64,000 bases of DNA from Muriicola sp. Z0-33 (GTDB taxonomy: Bacteria > Bacteroidota > Bacteroidia > Flavobacteriales > Flavobacteriaceae), in assembly GCF_026126425.1 (NCBI RefSeq), contig NZ_JAFMPW010000002.1:1-64000 (forward strand), in the 5' to 3' direction. The notes beneath the pieces are model-generated. The model was not told the origin of the DNA. It did no database searches and worked only from the letters and a program-made list of their open reading frames with translations. A program made the translations under genes and the position numbers. Every line of letters begins with the position of its first letter. Positions within the stretch are counted from its first letter, which is position 1. This document shows positions 48,809 through 63,592 of this stretch, piece after piece.

Positions 48809-49510
48809 CTAATTGTCAATTTCTTTCCAATTGCGATGCACAATCTTTACATTTTTATCCTGGACACATACAGCTGCAAGGTAACCATCTGCAGGAATAA
48901 ATGAAGACAGCTTCCATTGATGCCTTTCCGCTTTCTCCCATTTGGTTTCCAGCATTTCGGCAGTAAGATCATCATCCAGGCAAACACTAAAAGCATCAAG
49001 GGGAAAAGAGAGACCACTTCCTATTGCTTTTATAAAAGATTCTTTGCGGGTCCAACAGCGATAAAATGCCCTGTCCTGCTCATTTTTATTTAAGCTGTTT
49101 AGCGCTTTAATTTCCTTCTCTGAAAAATTTTGTCTGGCAAGTTCAGCAAGATCGAAATCGGACTTAATAAGTTCCACATCCACTCCAAGCGGATGTTCCA
49201 TGCAAAAACCCATCACAAGAATGTTACCTGAATGAGATATATTGAAATAAGGAGCTTTGTTATCGTCAATAAAAGGTTTTCCCTGGTCACCAAATTTAAA
49301 ATTGATTTCCGATGGATGCTGTTTTGTATAGTGCCCTAAAAGATGTCTTAATATTCCCCGTCCAATTATGAAGGTATACCGGTCTTTATCAAACCGGTAT
49401 TTTTTTGCGTGGTCTAGCTCGGCTAAAGACAAATGCTTTTGATGCAAACTTACGCTCTCGATTAAACGTTGATCGATAGTCCAGACCGCAATGGTGTTTT
49501 TCGAAAGCAT
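48809..49510 (-). CDS. Sfp-type 4'-phosphopantetheinyl transferase
   Basis: A 233-residue enzyme that moves phosphopantetheine from CoA to the serine of carrier domains. The magnesium site is HPLGVDVELIKSDFD and the second signature FYRCWTRKESFIKAIGSGLS (WxxKEA type, with S for A). ILRHLLGHYTKQHP and FNISHSGNILVMGF match the N-terminal half. It is the last gene of the minus NRPS arm, 46 bases after the thioesterase-bearing gene, and would prime all carrier domains in this cluster. Confidence 0.92.
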   Translation of the reverse strand: MLSKNTIAVWTIDQRLIESVSLHQKHLSLAELDHAKKYRFDKDRYTFIIGRGILRHLLGHYTKQHPSEINFKFGDQGKPFIDDNKAPYFNISHSGNILVMGFCMEHPLGVDVELIKSDFDLAELARQNFSEKEIKALNSLNKNEQDRAFYRCWTRKESFIKAIGSGLSFPLDAFSVCLDDDLTAEMLETKWEKAERHQWKLSSFIPADGYLAAVCVQDKNVKIVHRNWKEIDN

Positions 49511-49556: not shown

Positions 49557-51956
49557 CTATACACACTCTTCTTCTATAATTTCAGCTAAATGTTTAACAT
49601 TAGGTTCTTCAAATATGCTGAAATGATTTCCAGGAGCATAACGCACTTTTAATTCAGCTTCCGCCCAAAATTCCCAGGAAGCCACTTTCGCTTTCTTTAA
49701 TTCCGGGTGTTCTTTATCTGCGAGAATAAGGGTGCATGGTGCATTGATCTTCTCCCATTGGTACTTATAGTAGATTGCACTAAGGTGATGCCTTATATGC
49801 CTAAGCTGCATTTGTAACTTGTTATTACTCCATTTCAAATATAATGGCTCCAGAGACTGTCTGTATCTGGAGATAATAGAACTTCTTATGGTTAAAACAG
49901 GGCTACGACTAAGAGTTTTCAGGTATTTACCAAGGCGTTGGTAATATCCTGGCTTTTTCTCCAAAGTTTTGGGTCTGCCCCAGCTGTCTATAATAATAAG
50001 ATTAAACTTTTTATCCAGTTTTCTGAATTGTTTGGCCATTTCAACAACTATAGCACTGTAACAATAAAAAACAAGGTTATATGATTCAACATCTGGTACC
50101 TCTAAGATCTCAGAAATATAGTCCTTACTCATTTGTTCTATACTATTGTGCATTGGGCCGTCACCATGAATTCCTTTTGGCTGAACCAAATAGACCGGTC
50201 TGTCTTCATCCAGAAGGGTAGACATTTTCTTATAAAACAAAACATGCCCTTCACCTGCATGTATACAAAATACCGGACTTTTTTTGCCTTCGGGCTTTAA
50301 AGGGATTAGGAATTCCCAGGGTTTTTTACCCTCCGGAGTTTTCTGATGGTGTATTTCCTGAGCAAGGCCTTTGATTGTTGGATGAAGCAATAAAGCAGTC
50401 ACTGGCAATTTAATATCAAACTGTTCATTGATCCTTGCAATCATTTTTAACGCCATTAATGATTTGCCCCCCAGATCAAAATAATTATCGTTTACCCCAA
50501 TTTCGTTGTGCCCCAAAATATCTTCCCAAATAGCAACTAATTGTACTTCCAAATCATTCTCAGGCGCAACAAAGGTGGGTTTTGCTTTAGTTTGAATGGG
50601 TCCTGAAGTATTGTCTACTGCGAACTTGGGGGGAGCAATACTGTTAATAATCTCTTGTACGGTACTGTTTTGCTGAACTAAAATGGTATCGACTAGCTTT
50701 TGCAAATTCCCGACCAGCCAGTTTTTTGTCTGAGAATTTATTTGATCATTTTGAAAAATGAAAGTAAAAACAATTTCCGAATGTGGAAGTACCATTAGGG
50801 ATAACGGATAATTTGAGGTAACCCCGCTTCTGTATCCTTGTAATTCTATATCACCGCTTTTTGCTTTTTTAGAGGGATAATTTTCAAAGATTAATATGCT
50901 ATCGAACAAGTTCCCACTGGTAATGTCTTTAAGTAGGTCAGAAATTTCATTCTGATTTACGTGTCCATATTTTAGCGCACTAAGTTGCTTTGACTGGTAT
51001 TTAGTCAGCCATTGATCTAGCGTTAGTTCCCGAACTACTTTACCACGAATAGGCAGAATATTGGTAAATACTCCACACAACATTTCCATATTTGGAAAAT
51101 CATTTGAACGCCCGGATATGGCCGACCCAAAAATTATGTCGTCATGATTAAAATATACACTAAGTAATAAGGTCCATACGCCCTGAATTAAGGTGTTCAG
51201 GCTTATTTTAGATTTCTGGGATAATCTGTTCAGTTCTTGTGAAGTTTCAGCTGTTAAACGAATCTTTTCAACAGACTTATTTGATGGATCATTGTCTGAA
51301 GCCCCGGATTTATTAAAAAGATGAACTTTCTGAAAGCCTTCGAAATAGCCTTCCCAGAACTGGCTTGCCTCCTGAGGGTTTTTCTTTTTGATCCAGTTAT
51401 AATAGGACTTAAGCGATGGCAGGGGGCCTAAATCTATAACTTCATTCTTGCAAATTGCATCGTAAAAAGCCAATACATCCTTGATGATATTGCTACTAGA
51501 CCATCCATCTAATAAGAGATGATGGCAGGGCCAAAGAAAATAGTGCTTGTTTTCTTCGAGGGCAATAAGATGGAAGTTATTTGAAGGGTTTTTTTGGAAA
51601 TCTAATCCATCAATCCTGTTTTGTTTTTTTTGTAGTTTAATTTTCTCCCTTTGTGCTGTAACATCTATATTATTCCAGTCATCAAACTGCCATTTTGCAG
51701 CTATATCAGAATGGATTACCTGTAAAGGTTTTTCTATATTTTCCCAATGAATTGTTGTTCTGAGAATTTCGTGCCTGGCTATCACCAACTCCCAGGCTTC
51801 TATTAACGCTTCTCTGTTCAGCTTTCCATTGATGCCAAACTCTACATGCAAGAAACCTTCATCCCATTGGCTGTGCAGGTGATGTATAAGAATTCCCTCC
51901 TGCATTTCTGAAAGTGGAAGAATGGCCTCTATTTTTGATTTCTTTGCTGTATTCAT
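49557..51956 (-). CDS. NRPS termination protein: C-PCP-TE without A domain
   Basis: A 799-residue protein. A condensation domain fills about 10-440, with active site HHLLLDG (His145, His146, Asp150). No adenylation domain follows. The carrier domain has FDLGGKSL with Ser499. A type I thioesterase fills about 555-799: Ser634 sits in FYCYSAIVVEM, where the usual elbow is GYSFGG, and His778 is in APGNHFSIFEE. The condensation domain receives the chain from the epimerising protein encoded seven bases upstream, then the thioesterase releases or cyclises it. Its carrier must be charged in trans. Confidence 0.9.
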   Translation of the reverse strand: MNTAKKSKIEAILPLSEMQEGILIHHLHSQWDEGFLHVEFGINGKLNREALIEAWELVIARHEILRTTIHWENIEKPLQVIHSDIAAKWQFDDWNNIDVTAQREKIKLQKKQNRIDGLDFQKNPSNNFHLIALEENKHYFLWPCHHLLLDGWSSSNIIKDVLAFYDAICKNEVIDLGPLPSLKSYYNWIKKKNPQEASQFWEGYFEGFQKVHLFNKSGASDNDPSNKSVEKIRLTAETSQELNRLSQKSKISLNTLIQGVWTLLLSVYFNHDDIIFGSAISGRSNDFPNMEMLCGVFTNILPIRGKVVRELTLDQWLTKYQSKQLSALKYGHVNQNEISDLLKDITSGNLFDSILIFENYPSKKAKSGDIELQGYRSGVTSNYPLSLMVLPHSEIVFTFIFQNDQINSQTKNWLVGNLQKLVDTILVQQNSTVQEIINSIAPPKFAVDNTSGPIQTKAKPTFVAPENDLEVQLVAIWEDILGHNEIGVNDNYFDLGGKSLMALKMIARINEQFDIKLPVTALLLHPTIKGLAQEIHHQKTPEGKKPWEFLIPLKPEGKKSPVFCIHAGEGHVLFYKKMSTLLDEDRPVYLVQPKGIHGDGPMHNSIEQMSKDYISEILEVPDVESYNLVFYCYSAIVVEMAKQFRKLDKKFNLIIIDSWGRPKTLEKKPGYYQRLGKYLKTLSRSPVLTIRSSIISRYRQSLEPLYLKWSNNKLQMQLRHIRHHLSAIYYKYQWEKINAPCTLILADKEHPELKKAKVASWEFWAEAELKVRYAPGNHFSIFEEPNVKHLAEIIEEECV

Positions 51957-51963
51957 AGTACCA

Positions 51964-53931
51964 TTACATTCCTTTCAATAGATTATCCAGATCTTCCTGA
52001 CTAATATTTGCTTCTGGGAAATCGGAGGGGGTATACTCACCCGAGTCTTTATTTTTACAATATTCAATTATATTTTTGATGTTTGCCTCAAATTCAGCAG
52101 TAAGGTTCTCCATGGTATCAGGCTTATACTTATCAGCAGCAAAACTCCAGTTTAAGTGTAGTTGTCCTTCAGAGATAAAAGCATTGATCTCTATACTGTA
52201 ATTACGCTCACTGGAAGGATGCCGTATATCTTCAGGCCTTGGAGTAAATATTATTTCCCCTGGCAAATTTGTACTTTTTTTATTCCCCAAATAATTAAAT
52301 ACCAGTGGGGGATTGCCTTGTAATTGCTGGCCATCCGAAAGGTATTTTAAAACGCCATAACCAATACCATTATTAGGTATATTTCTAATTCGTTCCTTTA
52401 CGCCCTTAATTTGTTCTCCTATGTCTCCGTCTGAATTAAGATCAATTCTGACAGGGAAAAATGAAGTAAACCAACCAACAGTGTTAGAAACATCCGCACT
52501 TAGTAGCTCTGCTGTCCTTCCATGACGTTCCATCAAAAAGCAAAATTCTTTAATTTCTTCCCAGGAACATATAGTGGCAACCAGAGCGGTTATCAGCAAA
52601 TCCTCTGTTTTTGTATTGTAAAGCTCATTTGCCTCCTGCATTAAGAATGAAGTATCGTTCTCATTCAAAACCCATTTTAAAACGTGAATCGAACTTTCTT
52701 CAAATATACTTTGCTGGCTTTCAGTATCTGGGGGGAATAAATCTTGTGCGCAGACTTGCGATTGCCAATACGAAACTTCTTTATTTATGTCGGCAGATGA
52801 CCTAAGTTCAGAAAGCTGTTCTGACCAATCTTTAATTGTTGCAATTTTATTTTCCAACTCCAGATGTTCACGCTGCTGCTGTTGTCGCAATAATTGTCTA
52901 AAATCATTTTGCAGAATGTTCCAGGAAACCATATCCGTGACAAGATGATGCCCTATGAGAAAAATTCTATTTTCCCCGGCTTTACCACCCTCAAAAAAGA
53001 CACATCTGAAAAGACCGCCATTACTCATATCAAAGGCAGTTTGATGGGCAATGAGTTGATTTCTCACCTCTTTATCTTGCTCTTTCTGATCTGTGAATTG
53101 TTTTATATCGATATGGTAAAAGAAGTGGATATCCTGCTGGTTTAAAACACGAGCTCTCCAATCATCACCCAACTTCTTAAAACTTAATCTTAAGGCATCG
53201 TGATGACCGATGATTTCGCCGACAATCTCTTTCAAAATAGACGGTTGTGTAATCCCCGTATTCCTGACCTCCATTATTTGATTCCAATAATGAGGAGCCG
53301 ATTTATGCAGATCAAAAAACCAATGTTGAATAGGAGTTAATGGTATATCACCTTCAACGGTTGCTATTTTAATTTGGTCATTCTCACTTTTTGCAAACAG
53401 TGCAAGCTCTGCAATGGTTTGATTTTCAAATAACTGATTTGGACTTAATTGAATGCCCAATTTTCTGGCCTTGGCTACAATTTGAATACTAAGAATAGAA
53501 TCTCCTCCAATTTCAAAGAAATTATCGGTGGTAAGGATAGGAGAGAAAGCCAATACATCTTCCCAAATCGCAATTAGTTTTTTCTCAACTTCTGAAGTTG
53601 ATTTCCTGGCTTCTTTTGTCTTCTTAGTTACTTTTAGTTTCGTCTTTCTCAGAGCGCCTTTGTCTATTTTCCCGTTGGGTAAATAGGGAAAATCTTCAAC
53701 CAATTGCACCGTAGACGGAATCATATGTGCCGGCAATTGTTCTTTCATGTAGGCCTGAAGGTTTTCCGGCTGATAAGAATCATGAGGCCTTATATAAGCC
53801 ACCAGACGTTTGGAGCTCTTTCTTTGGGAAGAACCACCTCCTTTGTCTGTAAGGCTTTGTAGCTTATACAGCAATAGTCTACGCTCTTCAGCTGTAAATG
53901 TCTCTATTGTTGTCTTGATAGATTCTGTCAT
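51964..53931 (-). CDS. NRPS protein: A-domain C-terminal part, PCP, epimerisation domain
   Basis: A 655-residue protein (ATG at 53931; a TTG at 53961 is less likely). Residues 10-28 form an amphipathic helix (FTAEERRLLLYKLQSL). Residues 40-95 are only the tail of an adenylation domain: motif A9 LPAHMIPSTVQLVEDFPYLP, then A10 NGKIDK with Lys88. The carrier domain is EIGGDSILSIQI with Ser145. An epimerisation domain follows: PLTPIQHWFFDLH, HHLVTDMVSWNIL (His328, His329), NTVGWFTSFFPV and FNYLGN. The front of the same adenylation domain ends the upstream gene, so the module works only as a pair. Confidence 0.9.
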   Translation of the reverse strand: MTESIKTTIETFTAEERRLLLYKLQSLTDKGGGSSQRKSSKRLVAYIRPHDSYQPENLQAYMKEQLPAHMIPSTVQLVEDFPYLPNGKIDKGALRKTKLKVTKKTKEARKSTSEVEKKLIAIWEDVLAFSPILTTDNFFEIGGDSILSIQIVAKARKLGIQLSPNQLFENQTIAELALFAKSENDQIKIATVEGDIPLTPIQHWFFDLHKSAPHYWNQIMEVRNTGITQPSILKEIVGEIIGHHDALRLSFKKLGDDWRARVLNQQDIHFFYHIDIKQFTDQKEQDKEVRNQLIAHQTAFDMSNGGLFRCVFFEGGKAGENRIFLIGHHLVTDMVSWNILQNDFRQLLRQQQQREHLELENKIATIKDWSEQLSELRSSADINKEVSYWQSQVCAQDLFPPDTESQQSIFEESSIHVLKWVLNENDTSFLMQEANELYNTKTEDLLITALVATICSWEEIKEFCFLMERHGRTAELLSADVSNTVGWFTSFFPVRIDLNSDGDIGEQIKGVKERIRNIPNNGIGYGVLKYLSDGQQLQGNPPLVFNYLGNKKSTNLPGEIIFTPRPEDIRHPSSERNYSIEINAFISEGQLHLNWSFAADKYKPDTMENLTAEFEANIKNIIEYCKNKDSGEYTPSDFPEANISQEDLDNLLKGM

Positions 53932-54051
53932 TATTTTACCGCATTTAGCCGTACTTGGCAAAGAGGCGCAATGGTGAAATCACGCCTAATTGCGATGTAA
54001 ATTTTATAGCTGTCGGACCTTCTTATTTTTTTTCATTACCCCAGTATGCTT

Positions 54052-56988
54052 TTATTCCTGCAATTGTTTCAGTAAATATTTCTTTTCATCGTCAGTAAGG
54101 GCCTGAATAGAGGCAATAAGTTCTTCTATCTGGGTTTGATCATTAAAATTTTCCAGATATTCAACTATGCTATCTGTATCTAGTTCAGAGATATGTTCTC
54201 CAACTTCTTCTCTGGCAGACTCTTCAAGAAGTACCACTACCTTGTCCACATCGGCATTACCTTCAACGGTCTTTTCAATCTCACCCAGTTCTACCCGAAA
54301 TCCCCTAATCTTTATCTGTTGGTCGGCCCTTCCTAAAAATTCTATTTGACCATATGTATTATATCTTCCTAAATCTCCAGTTTTATAAAGCTTCTTTGAC
54401 GCATCTTTATCAAATGGGTGATTTATAAACGATTTCGCAGTTCGTTCCGAGTTGTTCAGGTATCCACTAGTTAATAACGCACCTCCTATATAGATTTCTC
54501 CAACAGCTCCTACAGGCACTAATTGAAGTTCCTCATTTAAAATATAGATTTCAGCATGTCCTACAGCTTTGCCTATAGGGATCGGAGTATTTCTGTTCTG
54601 ATCTTCAGTTATCTGATGTGCAATACACCAAACAGTTGCTTCGGTTGGCCCATATTCGTTATATAAAGCAACCCCGGGTAATTTTTTAAAATGAGCAACT
54701 ACTGTAGAAATACCACAGGCCTCTCCGGCAACGGCAACCGTATTTAAAGATCCAAGCTTAGAAATATCGCTGTGGTCCAGAATAGTCTTATAGAGCGAGG
54801 GTAGCATTAATGTATGTGTTACAGAATTCCTGTAAATGACCTCTTCTAATTTTGTTATGTCTTGTTCTAATCTTTTTTCGGCAATGACCAGGTTACCTCC
54901 CGTGCAAAGGCTCCAGAATATTCCTGCTTTGGAACTGTCAAAGGAGATAGAGGAAAGTAATAAAAAAGCCTTGGGATGATTCGGGTAAAAAGTAAGTCTG
55001 CCTTCGGTAGAAAGGATAATATTTTTATGGCTTATCGGCACCCCTTTCGGTTGCCCGCTACTACCAGAGGTGTAGATCACATAAGCAAGATCATCTCCGC
55101 TCGCTACTGGTAAGCTAACAGGGTCATTGACTTCGGAATCTACCTGGCCATCTATTAGATGAACCGCACCTTCATAGGTATTAAATAAAGCAGCTAGTTT
55201 ATCCTGGGTAAATACCAGAGGTACTTTAGAATCTGCCAGCATATAGTTTATTCGTTCCTCAGGGTATTCAGGGTCTATAGGAAGATAAGCACAGCCTGCC
55301 TTTAGAATTGCGAGTATGCCAACAATCATTTCTATGGAACGCTCTGTACATAAGCCTACAATTTCATTTCTTCCTTCTGTTTGAGAAATAATATTCTTCG
55401 CAATAATATCCGATCTCTGCAGCAGTTGTCTATATGAAATACTTTGGTCATTAAAGGTTACAGCGGCATTATCAGGATATTGATTTCCTATTTCTGTAAT
55501 GATTTCATGGATGCCATTATAATTGCTGAAAGGACCCTCATTTACAACTTTTCCCGGCATTAATATGGCTAGCTCCCTTTCATTGAGCATTGAAATGTTG
55601 CAAATTTTCTCATTGGGGTTATCAAGAATATGCTCTAATAATGTTCTGTAATTCTCATGAAACCGCAATATCGTTTCTTCTTCAAATAACTCTTTTGAGT
55701 ATTCAAAAGAGGAAGATAGAAGATCATTTTCATTAGAGATAAACATAGTAAGGTCAAATTTGGATACACCGCTGTTGAGCAATACGTATGTCATCTCTAC
55801 TCCGGGTCCAAAAGAGGGGGTTTCAGGGATGTCATGATACATAAACATACCTCTGAAAAAAGGAGTTTTGCCTGGAATTCTCTCTGGCTTCAATTCTTTT
55901 ACCAGCAAATCAAATGGTACATCCCTGTTTGAAAAAGCTTCCAGGACCGTTTGGTTGACCTTTTTCACCAAATCTAAAAAAGTGTCCTCGTGAGAAAAGA
56001 TGGTTCTCAAAACTATGGTCTCATCGAAAAAGCCAATAAGATTTTCCAGAATCTTTCCTTTCCGCAGCGCAATTGGTGCCCCGAGCAAAATATCTTTTTG
56101 ACCGCTGTACTTGTGCAGCATAAGATGGTAAACAGACATTAAGAGAACGTAAGGAGTTGTTCCCAATTCCTTGGAGAGATTTAATATTCTTTCAGATTGA
56201 GATTTGCTAAAAGGTTGTCTTAGAGGTTCGCCTTTGAAAGCCGTGCTTCCTGTAAAAGCATAGTCGGTTGGCAAATTAAGTGTGGGTAGTTCCCCCGAAA
56301 GTTTTTCCTTCCAGTATTGCAATTGTTCAGGATCTACCTCCTGGCTTTGCTGCCAGTAGGCAAAATCAGAAAATTGTATGGGAGGTGCTTCAACTGCAAG
56401 GGGTACATCAGAGATCAGGTTTTTATAATGCTTGGCCATTTGCTCCCTAAATAAGCCCATAGACCATTTATCCGTGATGATATGATGTATTGTGACCAAC
56501 AAATCCCATTCGGAGGCCGCAACCTTTATTAGTGAGACTCTCATTAAAGGAGCTTTATCCAAATCGAAGCCACTTCCTGCATCTTCTGCCAGAATTTTTT
56601 GCTTTTGTTCATCTCTTTCCGATTCGGTAAGCTGACTAAGATCAAATTCTTTGATCTTAAGACTGCTAACAGGGGAAGTTTTTTGAACAAGCATTCCATT
56701 TTCAAGTACAAAAAAAGCTCTTAAAACTCTATTGTTCGCAAAGATTTTATGCAAGCTCAACTTAAGAATTTCAGGCTGTAGATCACCTTTAAAAGTATAT
56801 AAATCAGAGTAGTTATATACCGGATTCCTGGGATAGAGTTGCTGCAGAAACCAAAGTCGTTGCTGACCATGAGATGCTGGTATAACGGCATCCAAGGGAG
56901 CACTTGGGATGCTAGAGGTCAACGACTTCTTCTTATCGCTTTCTTTCCATTTGCTTAGAAGAGATTTCTTTTGACTACTGTCTTTCAT
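54052..56988 (-). CDS. NRPS protein: C domain and A-domain N-terminal part
   Basis: A 978-residue protein. The condensation domain (about 33-460) has HHIITDKW with His168, His169 and Asp173; Lys replaces the usual Gly. The adenylation domain runs from about 490, with A3 YTSGSSGQPKGVPISH (near 641), A4 SFDSSKAGIF, A5 YNEYGPTEATVW, A7 YKTGDLGRY and A8 GRADQQIKIRGFRVELGEIE. It then stops: A9 and A10 are in the next gene. The C-terminal 50 residues are acidic and end in an amphipathic TDDEKKYLLKQLQE. Pocket residues by eye are D-S-A-M-A-A-E-V-W; I do not recognise the substrate. Confidence 0.9.
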   Translation of the reverse strand: MKDSSQKKSLLSKWKESDKKKSLTSSIPSAPLDAVIPASHGQQRLWFLQQLYPRNPVYNYSDLYTFKGDLQPEILKLSLHKIFANNRVLRAFFVLENGMLVQKTSPVSSLKIKEFDLSQLTESERDEQKQKILAEDAGSGFDLDKAPLMRVSLIKVAASEWDLLVTIHHIITDKWSMGLFREQMAKHYKNLISDVPLAVEAPPIQFSDFAYWQQSQEVDPEQLQYWKEKLSGELPTLNLPTDYAFTGSTAFKGEPLRQPFSKSQSERILNLSKELGTTPYVLLMSVYHLMLHKYSGQKDILLGAPIALRKGKILENLIGFFDETIVLRTIFSHEDTFLDLVKKVNQTVLEAFSNRDVPFDLLVKELKPERIPGKTPFFRGMFMYHDIPETPSFGPGVEMTYVLLNSGVSKFDLTMFISNENDLLSSSFEYSKELFEEETILRFHENYRTLLEHILDNPNEKICNISMLNERELAILMPGKVVNEGPFSNYNGIHEIITEIGNQYPDNAAVTFNDQSISYRQLLQRSDIIAKNIISQTEGRNEIVGLCTERSIEMIVGILAILKAGCAYLPIDPEYPEERINYMLADSKVPLVFTQDKLAALFNTYEGAVHLIDGQVDSEVNDPVSLPVASGDDLAYVIYTSGSSGQPKGVPISHKNIILSTEGRLTFYPNHPKAFLLLSSISFDSSKAGIFWSLCTGGNLVIAEKRLEQDITKLEEVIYRNSVTHTLMLPSLYKTILDHSDISKLGSLNTVAVAGEACGISTVVAHFKKLPGVALYNEYGPTEATVWCIAHQITEDQNRNTPIPIGKAVGHAEIYILNEELQLVPVGAVGEIYIGGALLTSGYLNNSERTAKSFINHPFDKDASKKLYKTGDLGRYNTYGQIEFLGRADQQIKIRGFRVELGEIEKTVEGNADVDKVVVLLEESAREEVGEHISELDTDSIVEYLENFNDQTQIEELIASIQALTDDEKKYLLKQLQE

Positions 56989-57011: not shown

Positions 57012-58271
57012 TTACCTAAGTCCAAGTAAGACTGCTAATTTGAAAGCTTCCTTTCTTAAATAATTGTCGAATAAGAGATCAATCTCAAGGGAGCGTTCAA
57101 TAAACCAATAAAGTGATATAAAAATAAGAAGAACAGATAAAACTGTCAGAAAAATAGGATACAACTTTAAATTTCGTATAAAATATAGCATTGGAAAAAT
57201 AAGTGCTATAATAGCTACTTGTCCAATTTCAACACCAATATTAAAACCAAGTAAAGAAAGAGTCAAAAATTCCCCATTGAAACCTAATTCTGACAATACG
57301 GTAGCAAATCCAAATCCGTGAAATAATCCGAAAACAAATGCGATTACCCAATCTCTGCCCCTAAATATTGGTCGTATGTTATGATAGGCGGCTAATCCGA
57401 TAGATAAGGCAATTACGGACTCTACTATTCTGGAAGGTAGACTTATCAAATTTAAGGAGGCCAGACTCAGGGTGATTGTATGGGCAATAGTAAAAAATGT
57501 AATCACTTTTAGTATATACCAAAATGCCGGCCTGAATTTCTTTACAGGCTCCCAACTTGACAACATGAAAAAAGCTGCTATCTTATTACCTTTTCCAGGC
57601 CCATGGGGATCTTTTCTTCTCCTTACAACAGAAGGAAGAATAAGTGCCAGTATAAACAAGATATGATCCAGACCTATCCAAATGTGCCATATACCCTGTC
57701 TTATCATTTCTACAAAACCCTTCCATAGCGAAGTATCTGTTAAAGAAAGTGTTTTGGTTTTGTAGCTCTGGGTAAATTCCAGTGCTATAATTTTTTCGTT
57801 GTTTATTAGTCCCGCTTTCCAGTTATATTCCATCCCAAGTCCATTACTATGGGCAGGGTTTTCATCCAAAAAGACAGAAAATGTTACCTCTAAATCATCT
57901 GGGGGTGGATTGGTATTGTCGAGTTCAAAATGAAATGCGACAAATGTTCCTATATTAATTTTCAGCAAACTTATTTCTCCAGTGAAAATTATTTTGTGAT
58001 CTCCGTTTATTGAAGAAAAAGCCGCATTCTTTAGAATATATGCCTGCAGTTGATCTTCATACTCTTTTACTTCCTCAACGGTAGGGTGTTTAGGAAGGTC
58101 TATACCCAAATAGGTGCTAATATCCACAGCATTCATCTCAAAACGCCCTTCAATAGTAGCAGATTCGTAGACTCTTAAATATATAAGACTCCTGTCTGGC
58201 CTATGGGCAAAAATACTTATGGGAATCAAAAGGAAGATAATGAAAACGAGTTGAACCAGTGTTCTTTTCAT
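57012..58271 (-). CDS. HupE/UreJ-like membrane protein
   Basis: A 419-residue protein with a signal peptide (cut near ISIFAHRP), an extracytoplasmic domain of about 170 residues, then about seven helices. The core WHIWIGLDHILFILALILPS and FGLFHGFGFATVLSELGF are the HupE/UreJ_2 signature. Related HupE/UreJ proteins are nickel or cobalt permeases; the longer type has no proven function. It is the first gene of the minus NRPS arm, 23 bases before the first NRPS gene, so it probably serves the product, for instance in transport, or metal handling. Confidence 0.83.
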   Translation of the reverse strand: MKRTLVQLVFIIFLLIPISIFAHRPDRSLIYLRVYESATIEGRFEMNAVDISTYLGIDLPKHPTVEEVKEYEDQLQAYILKNAAFSSINGDHKIIFTGEISLLKINIGTFVAFHFELDNTNPPPDDLEVTFSVFLDENPAHSNGLGMEYNWKAGLINNEKIIALEFTQSYKTKTLSLTDTSLWKGFVEMIRQGIWHIWIGLDHILFILALILPSVVRRRKDPHGPGKGNKIAAFFMLSSWEPVKKFRPAFWYILKVITFFTIAHTITLSLASLNLISLPSRIVESVIALSIGLAAYHNIRPIFRGRDWVIAFVFGLFHGFGFATVLSELGFNGEFLTLSLLGFNIGVEIGQVAIIALIFPMLYFIRNLKLYPIFLTVLSVLLIFISLYWFIERSLEIDLLFDNYLRKEAFKLAVLLGLR

Positions 58272-58645: not shown

Positions 58646-60217
58646 ATGATCTATAATCTAGCACAATTAGTAGCAAAATCTGCTTCACTTTTCCCCGAAA
58701 AGGATGCCTTTAGATGCCTGGATGACTCCATTACTTATAAGGAGTTAGACACCAGGACCAACCAGTTGGCTGCTTATCTTATTGGTGCCGGATTACAAAA
58801 AGGAGACCGGGTTGCTATATATATGAACAGATGTTTGGAAACATGTATTGCGGTACATGGAATTCTTAAAGCCGGAGGGGCCTTTGTGGCCATCAACCCT
58901 TTTTCTCCGCTCGAAAGAACAATGACTATTATGAAGGATTGCGATATAGCTTTCCTATTGAGTACTCCTTCACAAATGCGCAAGATTAAAGCGATAGCCA
59001 AAGCCGCTAATTTTTTGAATACGATAATTGGGGTTTCGGAAATAGAAGGTACTAACACCATTACATGGGAAGATATTTCGTCACTACCTCTGGATGATTA
59101 TAATCCACCGGAAATTTTAGGAAAAGATCTATCTTCCATATTGTATACTTCTGGGTCAACTGGGATTCCTAAGGGAATAATGCACACCCATTACAGTAGT
59201 TTAAGTCTGGCCAAACTGGAGGTAAAGCTTCATGATTCGACGCATGAAGATCGCATTGGAAATTTTGCCCCCTTACACTTCGACCAGTCTTTGTTCGGTT
59301 ATTTTTCAGGACCCCTGGTAGGAGCAACTACGGTGATTTTTCCCGATGCATATGTAAGACTGCCTAAAAGTTTATCTGCTTTGGTAGCAAAAGAGCAAAT
59401 TACACTTTGGTTTTCCGTACCGCTTATATTGACACAGGTTCTGCTTAACGGAGATATAGACGATCATGATTTCAGTTCTTTAAGATGGGTACGTTTTGGG
59501 GGAGAAGTCTTCCCGGTAAAACAACTAAGAGAGTTGATGCAAAAGTGGCCTCATGCCAAGTTCATTAATTCCTATGGCCCTTCAGAGTTATTCAGATGCA
59601 CTTATTATATACTGGAGGAGCCTCCAGAAACAGATGACCCTATCCCTTTGGGTACCGTATGGGGTAATACAGAATATAAGATACTAGATGAGAATGACCG
59701 GGAAGTTACCAAGGGAATACCCGGAGAGTTGGTGGTACGAACAGATACTTTAATGATTGGATATTGGAACAATCAACAGCTTACAGAGCAATCTTTCTAC
59801 AAAGAGCATGTGGCCTCTGGCTATGATTATGTTTTTTATCGCACCGGAGACCTGGTTGTGGAGAACGAGAATAATGAAATTATGTTTCTGGGGAGAATTG
59901 ACAGACAGATTAAATTACGGGGATACAGAGTAGAACTTGACGAGATAGAAGCCACCTTGTTGAAGCATGAAGGTATTGAGGAAGCTGCAGTAATTGTAGT
60001 TGAGAAAGCAGATGAAAACAAAGAACTGGAAGCTGTAGTGCGTTTGTCCAAAGGAGCAGAGGTAAGTACCAGGGATCTGATGCTCTTTTGCAAAAAAATA
60101 ATTCCGTCCTATGCTGTTCCTGAACATATGACCATAATAGAAGATTTTCCAAGGACGGGAACAGGAAAAATAGACAGGAACGAGATATTAAAATTATTGG
60201 AGACCAAAGTAGTATGA
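58646..60217 (+). CDS. Stand-alone NRPS adenylation enzyme
   Basis: A 523-residue complete adenylation domain without fused carrier: A3 ILYTSGSTGIPKGIMH (near 167), A4 APLHFDQSLFGYF, A5 NSYGPSELFRC, A7 YRTGDLVV, A8 GRIDRQIKLRGYRVELDEIE, A9 IPSYAVPEHM and A10 GTGKIDRNE. The conserved Asp in HFDQS favours an alpha-amino acid; pocket residues read by eye are D-Q-F-F-V-F-S-R-C, which I cannot match. A stand-alone carrier overlaps it by four bases and is its likely target. It could also charge the carrier of the A-less C-PCP-TE protein. Confidence 0.9.
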   Translation: MIYNLAQLVAKSASLFPEKDAFRCLDDSITYKELDTRTNQLAAYLIGAGLQKGDRVAIYMNRCLETCIAVHGILKAGGAFVAINPFSPLERTMTIMKDCDIAFLLSTPSQMRKIKAIAKAANFLNTIIGVSEIEGTNTITWEDISSLPLDDYNPPEILGKDLSSILYTSGSTGIPKGIMHTHYSSLSLAKLEVKLHDSTHEDRIGNFAPLHFDQSLFGYFSGPLVGATTVIFPDAYVRLPKSLSALVAKEQITLWFSVPLILTQVLLNGDIDDHDFSSLRWVRFGGEVFPVKQLRELMQKWPHAKFINSYGPSELFRCTYYILEEPPETDDPIPLGTVWGNTEYKILDENDREVTKGIPGELVVRTDTLMIGYWNNQQLTEQSFYKEHVASGYDYVFYRTGDLVVENENNEIMFLGRIDRQIKLRGYRVELDEIEATLLKHEGIEEAAVIVVEKADENKELEAVVRLSKGAEVSTRDLMLFCKKIIPSYAVPEHMTIIEDFPRTGTGKIDRNEILKLLETKVV

Positions 60218-60484: not shown

Positions 60485-63400
60485 ATGAAGTTTAAACTTA
60501 CAGCTAGTCAAATGTCGTTATGGGTGGGGCAAAAGTTGCATCCTGATGTTCCGCTATACAATACAGCGGCCTCTTATGATATTTCGGGCTCGGTTGATGT
60601 AGTAGTATTCCAAAAAGCCTTTCAAAAACTAATAGATACCACAGATGCCCTGAGAATGCAATTCACTGAAGAAAGTGGTATTCCATTTCAAAGTGTAAGA
60701 GCACCATTTCAATATAAGCTGGAAGTTATAGATTTTACTGAAGCTATATCTGAGAAGCAGGTTACGGATTGGCTTTCTACTCGCACAAAACGCATGTTAG
60801 ACCTTTCTGATCAGGTTTTTGACACCGCACTACTTAAAGTTGAAGAAGACAGGTATATCTGGTTTCTTAATCTTCACCATCTGGTTACCGATGGTTCTTC
60901 GAGAAAGATAATTTTCTCCAGAATGGCCCAGCTTTATTCTGATCTGACCAATGGTCAGGGGCAACAAGAGGAAGTCTGCATACCTTCATATCTGGAATAT
61001 GTTAAAAGCGAATTAGAAGGTGCTAATAAGCATGCTTTCGAAGAAAATTATTGGTCTGGAAAAATTAAAGAAATAGAAAATTTACCTGCATTTTATGGTC
61101 AAAGGGCGAAAGATACAACAACGGCTTCTACCCGGATATCAATTCAACTTGGAAAACAAAGAAGTGAGCAACTAAAAGCTATTGCTCAATACAGCGAAGA
61201 GAGAAGTTTTAGTTTGCAATTAACGCTTTTCAATATATTTTCAGCTATACTGCTGGCTTATCTTCATAAAGTCAGTGGTCAGAACAACCTGTCAATAGGT
61301 ACAACAAACCACGGTAGAAGCAGCAGAAAATTTAAACAGACTGTTGGCCATTTTGTCAAAGTGTTTCCCTTGGTAAGCGAAGTTTTGGAGCAAGATACAT
61401 TTGCAGCGCTTCTCAGGCGGGTTACCTATGGAAATAACGAGAATCTAAAACAGGGTTTATCGGCCTTGGTAAGTCCGGAAATTAACCGCAGTTACAATGT
61501 GATTTTTAATTACATCACTTCTGTTTTCACGGATTTTGCCGGGTTCCCGACTACTACTGCATGGCTTCATAATGGCCATATGGACACCGCTCATTATTTT
61601 CAATGCCATATTACCGACTTTAATGATAGCGGTAATTTTAATTTGCATATCGACTTAAATAATGAAGTGTTTACCGAGGATAACAGAAAGTATATTCCTG
61701 AACATTTTATAAAAGTAGTGGATGCTTTTATTGCTGATCAAAACACCAGACTTGGTGAAGTAAGTATTATTACAAAGGACGAAATAGCAAAAATTGAAAC
61801 CTGGAACGATACCTCAGCAGTATTTAATCAAAACGAAACACTTCTTTCTAAATTTGAAGCTCAGGTAGAAAAATCACCAGATGCTACAGCACTGGTCTTT
61901 GGAACAGATACCTATACCTACAGTGAGTTTAATGTAAGAGCCAATCAGCTGGCGCAATTTCTGATTGAAAACGGAACCAGGACTAACGATATCGTTGCTG
62001 TTAGTCTGGAAAGGTCATTAGACATGATGGTCAGTATCTACGGTATTCTTAAGGCAGGGGCAGCCTATTTACCATTAGATACAGCCACACCAATAGAACG
62101 GTTGCGTTTCATTGCTGAAGATGCTGCATTTAAAACAATACTGTTTAATCATGATGAAATAGACCCGGCGCAAATACCACACATCAACTGTTATCATGTT
62201 AAACAGATAGAAGATCAGGTCTTTTCACAAGATAATTCCCAACCAAATGTAATAACACATCCCAATGACCTGGCGTATGTCATATATACCTCGGGTAGTA
62301 CCGGAGAGCCCAAGGGTGTTAAATGCCATCATAAAGGAATAACCAATCGTTTAAATTGGATGAATCGTGATTATCCGATCACGGCAAAAGACACCCTGAT
62401 ACAAAAAACGCCCATCACTTTTGATGTATCACTCTGGGAATTGTTTTGGCCTTTACAGCAAGGAGCTAAGTTAATTATCGAAATTCCTGAAGGCCATAAA
62501 GATCCTGACCAGCTCATAACAACCATAGTAAGAAATAATGTTTCAGTTATTCACTTTGTGCCTTCAATGCTTAGTGTTTTTATTGCCAACACCAGGGCCG
62601 CATCTTGCTCTGGCTTAAATCGTATTTTTTGCAGTGGTGAAGCCCTGCCATTAAATACCGTAAAACAGGCATATGAGAAATTAGATCAGACAGAGATTTA
62701 TAATTTATATGGCCCTACGGAAGCCTCAGTTGACGTTAGCAGTTGGCATTGTGCAAGAAATGATTTGGATAATGGTATCCCTATAGGGTTTCCGGTGGCA
62801 AATACACAACTCTACATTTTAGATGAGCAACTTAAACAGGTGCCCATTGGAATGAAAGGGGAGCTTTTTATTGGAGGAGTTCAGTTGGCTTCAGGATATT
62901 TAAATAGAGAAAATCTAACCAACGAGAGATTTGTCAAGGATCCTTTTTCTGATACCCCTTCGGCAAAAATTTACAAGACAGGTGATGTTGCAAGGTATCG
63001 TAATGATGGAGCAATTGAGTATTTAGGCAGGACGGATAGTCAGATAAAAATAAGAGGTATTCGTGTAGAACTTGGCGAAATTGAAAATGCAATTGAGCAA
63101 CATTGCAAGGTATCGCAGGTTGCAGTAATTGTTGATAAAAACGAAGTACTTATTGCCTATTACACAACGGAATTCAATAACGACATTAGATTTAAGAGCA
63201 TACTTCTCGAGTGGCTGCCAGAATACATGATACCCACTCATTTCATAATGCTTGAAGAATTACCCTTATCAAAAAATGGAAAAGTAGATAAGAAAGCATT
63301 ACAAGCATTAGATACCTCTCACATACATGAAGTGGATTCCTATGTAGCTCCTGACGGGGAAATTGAAGAACTATTGGCCGGTATTTGGAAAGAGGTTCTT

Positions 63401-63592
63401 GGATTAGAAAAAGTAGGGGTACACGATAATTTTATAAGCCTGGGAGGGCATTCTTTGGCCGCTATCCGCGTCACGACAAGAATTAACGAGGAAATTGAAA
63501 TCAACTTTAGATTGAATAAAATATTTGAGCATCCTACAATTGCCGAATATGCTGACTATATAGAAGAAACCCTAACAGAACTTTTGAGTTAA
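60485..63592 (+). CDS. NRPS module C-A-PCP with a serine-type pocket
   Basis: A 1035-residue single module. The condensation domain has HHLVTDG (His131, His132, Asp136). The adenylation domain has YTSGSTGEPKGVKCHH, TFDVSLWELF, YNLYGPTEASVD, YKTGDVARY and GRTDSQIKIRGIRVELGEIE, then A9 LPEYMIPTHF and A10 NGKVDKK. Specificity residues read by alignment are D-V-W-H-F-S-L-V-D-K, a known serine code. The carrier has SLGGHSLAA with Ser990. No thioesterase is fused, so the chain passes to another protein, probably the minus arm. The next gene starts eight bases after the stop. Confidence 0.92.
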   Translation: MKFKLTASQMSLWVGQKLHPDVPLYNTAASYDISGSVDVVVFQKAFQKLIDTTDALRMQFTEESGIPFQSVRAPFQYKLEVIDFTEAISEKQVTDWLSTRTKRMLDLSDQVFDTALLKVEEDRYIWFLNLHHLVTDGSSRKIIFSRMAQLYSDLTNGQGQQEEVCIPSYLEYVKSELEGANKHAFEENYWSGKIKEIENLPAFYGQRAKDTTTASTRISIQLGKQRSEQLKAIAQYSEERSFSLQLTLFNIFSAILLAYLHKVSGQNNLSIGTTNHGRSSRKFKQTVGHFVKVFPLVSEVLEQDTFAALLRRVTYGNNENLKQGLSALVSPEINRSYNVIFNYITSVFTDFAGFPTTTAWLHNGHMDTAHYFQCHITDFNDSGNFNLHIDLNNEVFTEDNRKYIPEHFIKVVDAFIADQNTRLGEVSIITKDEIAKIETWNDTSAVFNQNETLLSKFEAQVEKSPDATALVFGTDTYTYSEFNVRANQLAQFLIENGTRTNDIVAVSLERSLDMMVSIYGILKAGAAYLPLDTATPIERLRFIAEDAAFKTILFNHDEIDPAQIPHINCYHVKQIEDQVFSQDNSQPNVITHPNDLAYVIYTSGSTGEPKGVKCHHKGITNRLNWMNRDYPITAKDTLIQKTPITFDVSLWELFWPLQQGAKLIIEIPEGHKDPDQLITTIVRNNVSVIHFVPSMLSVFIANTRAASCSGLNRIFCSGEALPLNTVKQAYEKLDQTEIYNLYGPTEASVDVSSWHCARNDLDNGIPIGFPVANTQLYILDEQLKQVPIGMKGELFIGGVQLASGYLNRENLTNERFVKDPFSDTPSAKIYKTGDVARYRNDGAIEYLGRTDSQIKIRGIRVELGEIENAIEQHCKVSQVAVIVDKNEVLIAYYTTEFNNDIRFKSILLEWLPEYMIPTHFIMLEELPLSKNGKVDKKALQALDTSHIHEVDSYVAPDGEIEELLAGIWKEVLGLEKVGVHDNFISLGGHSLAAIRVTTRINEEIEINFRLNKIFEHPTIAEYADYIEETLTELLS

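Follow-up and report, generated by a model that had tools for sequence, protein, structure and literature searches.

A naturally split adenylation domain in Muriicola sp. Z0-33 and its probable origin from a three-gene arrangement with a free guanidinoacetate methyltransferase-like protein

Interrupted adenylation (A) domains of nonribosomal peptide synthetases (NRPSs), in which a methyltransferase lies between motifs A8 and A9 (A8-M-A9; KtzH, McyA and ColG), are single domains with insertions, according to the cited portion of PMC11355689. A different arrangement is found in corallorazine biosynthesis, where, in the sections of PMC11342130 drawn on here, the second A domain of Crz1 stops after A8 and carries a fused nMT, and Crz2 begins with A9-A10; with Gly, Crz1.2 gave no turnover alone and was active with Crz2. 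The same sections call the Crz split unique, the nMT being conventionally embedded. Phrase searches of the open-access literature, which could miss others, found corallorazine as the one published split A domain, and a functional split A domain is, as a kind, already known. A further point of reference is provided by the class 2 docking pairs of polyketide synthases (PKSs), 4MYY (CurG/CurH) and 6TDN (Bamb_5925/5924), in which each partner contributes two helices to a dimeric bundle of eight, as described in the relevant part of PMC9113145.

The locus reported here lies in a window of 64,000 nucleotides, the whole stretch of DNA that was analysed, from Muriicola sp. Z0-33 (contig NZ_JAFMPW010000002.1, positions 1 to 64,000). 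Like Crz1/Crz2 as described in those sections, it divides the A domain between neighbouring ORFs, A1-A8 on one and A9-A10 on the next, with a methyltransferase at the break, which is fused to the N-terminal half in Crz, reduced to a remnant in the gap in the window, and a separate gene in Bacteroidota relatives. Unlike Crz1/Crz2, whose substrate is given as Gly, the present family has a predicted His-like substrate, a separate guanidinoacetate methyltransferase (GAMT)-like gene or its loss, conserved helices at both new ends, and a break that recurs across the family. In the window, no methyltransferase domain lies inside one A-domain polypeptide.

Both halves are encoded on the minus strand. 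The upstream protein (A-N, 978 amino acids, 54052..56988) consists of a condensation domain, motifs A1-A8 and a helical tail, with Pfam matches to condensation (residues 35-474) and AMP-binding (residues 501-844) domains; the motif names A1-A10 follow general NRPS usage. Motif A8, GRADQQIKIRGFRVELGEIEK, spans residues 886-906 (54271..54333, minus strand), and the C-terminus lies 72 residues past it. The tail has three predicted helices (residues 938-945, 951-962 and 966-977; 54058..54177, minus strand) and is kept in many split relatives. The downstream protein (A-C, 655 amino acids from its ATG, 51964..53931) begins with a head of two predicted helices (53845..53931, minus strand), followed by A9, A10, a peptidyl carrier protein (PCP) domain and an epimerase-type condensation domain (TIGR01720 match); in Pfam terms these are AMP-binding_C, PP-binding and a second condensation-type domain. 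The AMP-binding_C match falls under the Pfam cut-off (22.5 versus 24.5 bits), and the motifs are plain nonetheless: numbered from the ATG, A9 (LPAHMIPS) occupies residues 66-73 and A10 (LPNGKIDK) residues 84-91, within an A9-A10 subdomain (53647..53811, minus strand) whose catalytic lysine is residue 88 (53668-53670). The preliminary description of this DNA had placed the break after A8, with A9, A10 and the catalytic lysine on the second protein, and both ORFs and their motifs were found as it reported. The A-N half alone matched the whole of the A-domain model TIGR01733 (1-409 of 409), so annotation can miss split A domains of this kind.

Between the two ORFs lie 120 bases in which all three frames contain stops, and A-N and A-C are therefore not joinable by any single frameshift; a single frameshift as the origin of the break was excluded on these grounds. 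For A-C, the ATG at 53931 is the more likely start and a TTG at 53961 is doubtful, since the ATG overlaps by one base with the stop of the old methyltransferase frame, as do the A-C starts of four other loci (L076, L094, L098 and L104). The gene order continues downstream with an NRPS protein of C-PCP-thioesterase type (49557..51956, minus strand) and a 4'-phosphopantetheinyl transferase (48809..49510, minus strand); directly upstream of A-N is a HupE/UreJ_2 membrane protein (57012..58271, minus strand). A divergent operon on the plus strand encodes a stand-alone A domain (58646..60217) and a C-A-PCP module (60485..63592), both unsplit, with A8, A9 and A10 together in one ORF for each; the same cluster thus also makes A domains whole. 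Past this operon and beyond the window end (L139, 602-3458), a short His-rich protein and a protein resembling a TonB-dependent receptor by eye were also observed.

For the two halves as one enzyme, a combination of structure modeling and specificity-code analysis was used. An AlphaFold2 model of the window pair, read through the stops, had a mean pLDDT of 78.5 and a pTM of 0.66, and in Foldseek it matched whole A domains along their length (4d56: TM 0.80 by target length and rmsd 5.9, alignment of 622 columns). The model shows that both halves together make a complete A fold and says nothing of their binding; in its alignment (A3), where the A9-A10 part of the A-C rows was well positioned, 10 of the 47 rows are the query itself in trimmed form, and the head helices of relatives were aligned with the query tail, so packing of the head in the model is not evidence. 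The motif-anchored specificity residues in the window are DSAMAAEVW, with code positions following PheA numbering. DSAMIAEVW occurs in 32 of 67 rows, with most others close, and the DSA[M/C]IAEVW kind is the commonest in split, intact and fused rows alike. A His-like substrate is predicted from the likeness to DSALIAEVWK, which appears among the codes for His domains in the part of PMC12283262 used here. It is the second protein that supplies the tenth code residue, namely the A10 lysine. A-N and A-C probably work as one two-part enzyme. A His-type A domain together with HupE/UreJ_2, His-rich and TonB-receptor-like proteins suggests a metal-binding peptide.

To place the break within the family, 397 genomes of Flavobacteriaceae were searched, of which 58 gave a match at E 1e-100 or better; 35 regions were taken, and removal of one as non-orthologous (L075, genome G158) left 34 orthologous loci for all counts, the genus of the window being represented by one genome. 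The A domain is broken between A8 and A9 in 18 of the 34 loci, under 13 genus codes, so that homologues with the same break, a check proposed in the preliminary description, comprise 17 other orthologous loci and extend to other genera. In 15 loci the A domain is intact without insert, and in L066 (genome G011) a single chain carries an insert of ~100 residues between A8 and A9 and no methyltransferase. A HupE-like ORF precedes A-N in 33 of the 34; the exception, L073, lies near a contig start, comes from a metagenome-assembled genome (MAG) and has frame breaks in A-N and at the methyltransferase start. The split is, with near certainty, real and conserved. In four loci of the intact type (L044, L055, L063 and L064), an ORF of 433-449 amino acids after the A module looked glycosyltransferase-like by eye, and the peptide there may be glycosylated.

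Eleven of the 18 split loci have a gene of ~262 residues between the halves (its start disrupted in L073), which often overlaps A-C by four bases. The preliminary description had proposed an A domain that occurs naturally in two parts, with the break where methyltransferases are inserted; this is supported, although the description missed both the gene between the halves and its remnant in the window. The middle gene is GAMT-like (phmmer against the PDB, 3orh at E 1.7e-24), with no Pfam match above cut-off and none at all in NCBIfam. Compared with GAMT (3ORH, 1XCJ), it is homologous over residues 71-213, the SAM-binding region, and has an extra N-terminal region of ~70 residues.

An intact methyltransferase is absent from the other 7 split loci, the window among them. 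In the window, one open frame of the gap (53934..54032, minus strand, read from 54032 to 53934) keeps ~33 codons of the methyltransferase start as a decayed remnant. This frame was the top match of a 38-sequence methyltransferase profile over the whole window in six frames (9.5 bits, E only 0.07), aligned to profile positions 2-31, and of 5000 dinucleotide-shuffled versions of the 120-base gap none reached its score. A second, internally deleted gene was found in L062 (6931-7191), where an ORF of 87 amino acids joins the first 55 and last 35 residues of the methyltransferase; this miniature is still open and in frame, and is possibly a structural filler between the A halves. No remnant was found in L046, L058, L059, L065 or L068. 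Genome-wide, seven genomes whose loci are split or re-fused without a remnant-sized or full ORF, that of the window included (G000, G219, G389, G235, G354, G180 and G011), gave no methyltransferase match at E 0.01. No second copy was found elsewhere in the window genome, and relocation of the gene was rejected on this basis; in G253, the genome of L062, the one genome-wide match was its remnant. A smaller methyltransferase profile (A1) consists of 8 of the 11 family methyltransferases.

The methyltransferase loci were then collected more widely by scanning 84,980 species with two conserved methyltransferase peptide patterns, which returned at least 63 loci (the scan was not exhaustive); these are not 63 species, since L081 and L100 come from one genome. 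A9-A10 sits on a separate following ORF in 49 of the 63, comprising 39 three-gene loci in which A-N is separate too and 10 in which A-N is fused to the methyltransferase, the latter Crz-like and in phyla other than Bacteroidota. All parts in one ORF, the state of the interrupted A domains as described, which share the A8/A9 methyltransferase point but are one polypeptide, were seen in 0 of 63. The remaining 14 loci had no A-C within 900 bases: 9 were without an A-N or A-C match, L115, L125 and L136 lie at contig ends, L112 was unassigned, and L131 has a complete A domain upstream. One of those 9, L133, comes after an NRPS gene that itself encodes A10 and a carrier. In L131 (7308-9798, Micromonospora orduensis), the GAMT-like gene comes after the complete A domain and can therefore exist beside an unsplit one. 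The 49 loci fall under about ten phylum names (28 Bacteroidota, 21 outside), those outside Bacteroidota being mostly MAGs in which binning errors are possible, and a HupE-like motif is nearby in 28. The earlier view that such splits are rare has to be qualified: one functional example is published, and among the methyltransferase loci found a separate A9-A10 gene is the rule.

We next consider how the halves may be held together. Based on conservation, and in the window also on the structure model, A-N tails have two to three helices and A-C heads two; the model has both head helices, in a block of pLDDT about 56-76, the first of them beginning in the read-through linker. Similar amphipathic helices at both ends had been proposed beforehand. 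The two strings are present, and hhalign relates the profile of the tail to that of the head (probability 83, E 9e-6, 24 columns; profiles A4, of 24 rows, and A5, of 20, are selections from the 49 loci), but the two helices named then were the least amphipathic and not so above chance, since 1349 and 2981 of 5000 shuffles reached their hydrophobic moments. Amphipathicity above chance was seen for tail helices 1-2 and head helix 1 (19, 112 and 81 of 5000).

Searches with the head profile gave a match to the CurG/CurH docking fusion 4myy (E 0.0015) at residues 56-73, which we take to be the N-terminal docking part, and weak matches to 6tdd (E 0.12) and 6tdn (E 0.42), presumably the same docking system; the top match was a de novo repeat protein, and Pfam returned weak scattered matches only. 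With the tail profile, no docking domain came up at E values to 10; the top PDB matches were OspC. Matches to OspC and HeliScrew4 were discarded as short-helix and repeat artefacts. In comparison with class 2 PKS docking domains as described in PMC9113145, the A-C head may be a similar two-helix N-terminal element, with the pattern I..LS...R..L, and the A-N tail has predicted helices as the C-termini of their partners have short ones, but its profile is without a docking-domain match; the pairs described there join subunits, whereas the site here is inside one NRPS catalytic domain.

It is fairly probable, from sequence comparison, that A-N and A-C are docked through these end helices. The contender of some weight, although clearly the less probable, is that the helices are leftover linkers and that the halves meet via the normal A-core/A-C interface and neighbour subunits and by co-translation. 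Consistent with this are the lack of a docking-domain match for the tail profile, the lack of amphipathicity above chance in the two named helices, and the weaker constraint on the tail: between L058 and L059, split loci without methyltransferase, dN/dS was 0.46 for the tail and 0.28 for A9-A10 (few changes). One tail helix is also dispensable, helix 3 being absent by eye in 4 of the 5 split rows that have no trace of the methyltransferase, as well as from several loci of the three-gene kind outside Bacteroidota, so it is not the universal link. The latter loci also weaken the idea that tail helix 3 is a dock for the methyltransferase, which had come from its loss, by eye, in most of the methyltransferase-less clade and in L066. 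Against leftover linkers stand the relatedness of the two profiles, a head-like pattern before A9 in 37 of 43 extracted A-C ORFs (a loose pattern of our own, with no background control), a head dN/dS of 0.12 beside 0.13 for the A core, and the insert of L066, which by eye keeps tail helices 1-2 and the head.

The order of states was examined on a quick IQ-TREE tree of 67 A-N proteins. It leaves off L073 and L075, the 14 loci in which A-C had not been found and eleven duplicates, together with L101, which is short, and three loci in which the pattern gave no A8 (L107, L114 and L132). Split loci with methyltransferase occupy Rhodothermota, Cytophagales and the first Flavobacteriaceae branches. 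Those without an intact methyltransferase lie in three places, and four of them form a clade across genera with the re-fused L066 inside. The intact rows need 8 changes, 6 of them forced by starred branches. Intact homologues, which the preliminary description had regarded as a sign of artefact, do exist, L066 with its helical insert beside the 15; they are nested inside the split group and for this reason look derived. Mean A-C distances were near equal for intact-split (0.550) and intact-intact (0.555) pairs, which makes the intact genes look like rejoined versions of the same gene.

At equal costs, a split ancestor takes 9 changes versus 11 to 12 for the alternative. The tree favours the state with split and methyltransferase as ancestral and the intact genes as rejoined, on outgroups that were picked by having the methyltransferase and so are biased towards this outcome. 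That bias leaves room for the opposite course, in which the methyltransferase was inserted many times independently into intact A domains and the split is derived; at the Bacteroidota node the two courses tie when a loss is charged three times as much as a gain, and the outcome is reversed at five times. We regard repeated insertion as unlikely: distances between A-N proteins agree with those between the methyltransferases (Mantel r 0.886 for 34 rows and 0.762 for 26 rows, 0 of 2000 permutations), and deletion remnants persist in two lineages, those of the window and L062.

Somewhat more improbable still is that the window copy is a decaying module, which has lost the methyltransferase and whose split A domain has ceased to function. 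The methyltransferase is indeed only a remnant there, in the single genome of its genus, but both ORFs are open, the A8, A9, A10 and carrier motifs are kept, and six other orthologous loci retain the split without an intact methyltransferase, with low dN/dS between L058 and L059. For the family, a pseudogene or local mutation was rejected, as the break is common to relatives. A sequencing error or recent local mutation of an intact gene is barely credible even with 15 of 34 loci intact, since 17 other loci break at the same place, 11 have a gene between their halves, every frame of the gap contains stops and the site lies inside a 657-kb contig.

Our preferred reading, to which we assign a probability of about 0.8, is a naturally split A domain that comes from a three-gene "interrupted" A domain made of A-N, a free GAMT-like methyltransferase and A-C. 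The ancestor would have had A-N (A1-A8), the methyltransferase and A-C (A9-A10) on adjacent, often overlapping genes. The halves would re-form the enzyme: ATP and a histidine-like amino acid would be bound by A-N, and the A10 lysine and the PCP would come from A-C, the two being held together in docking-domain fashion by the C-terminal helices of A-N and the N-terminal helices of A-C. In relatives, the methyltransferase would join this complex, where it would methylate the amino acid; in the window the methylation step would have been lost and the split would have stayed, and intact genes and L066, re-fused with its helices kept, would be derived states. As far as the literature searches show, the separate GAMT-like gene, the family-wide break, the conserved end helices, the lost-methyltransferase states, that of the window among them, and natural refusion are new.

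A8/A9 domain splitting and methyltransferase insertion are engineering targets, for which the family offers candidate docking pairs to split A domains and, where the module is of His type, methyltransferase subunits that are removable. The corallorazine authors, in the sections of PMC11342130 used here, could only ask how their split arose; the related genomes described here present a series of states, from three genes through a deleted methyltransferase and two genes to a re-fused chain with helices and a clean intact gene, which are natural tests of how a broken enzyme stays together. More broadly, and with the odds only a little in its favour, evolution may keep a catalytic NRPS domain as two or three proteins with a docking-domain pair inside the domain, the GAMT-like methyltransferase being a removable A8/A9 subunit. 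Such an arrangement would be old, with examples under about ten phylum names; its lineages would drop the methyltransferase and either keep the split or reseal it, once with the helices as an insert.
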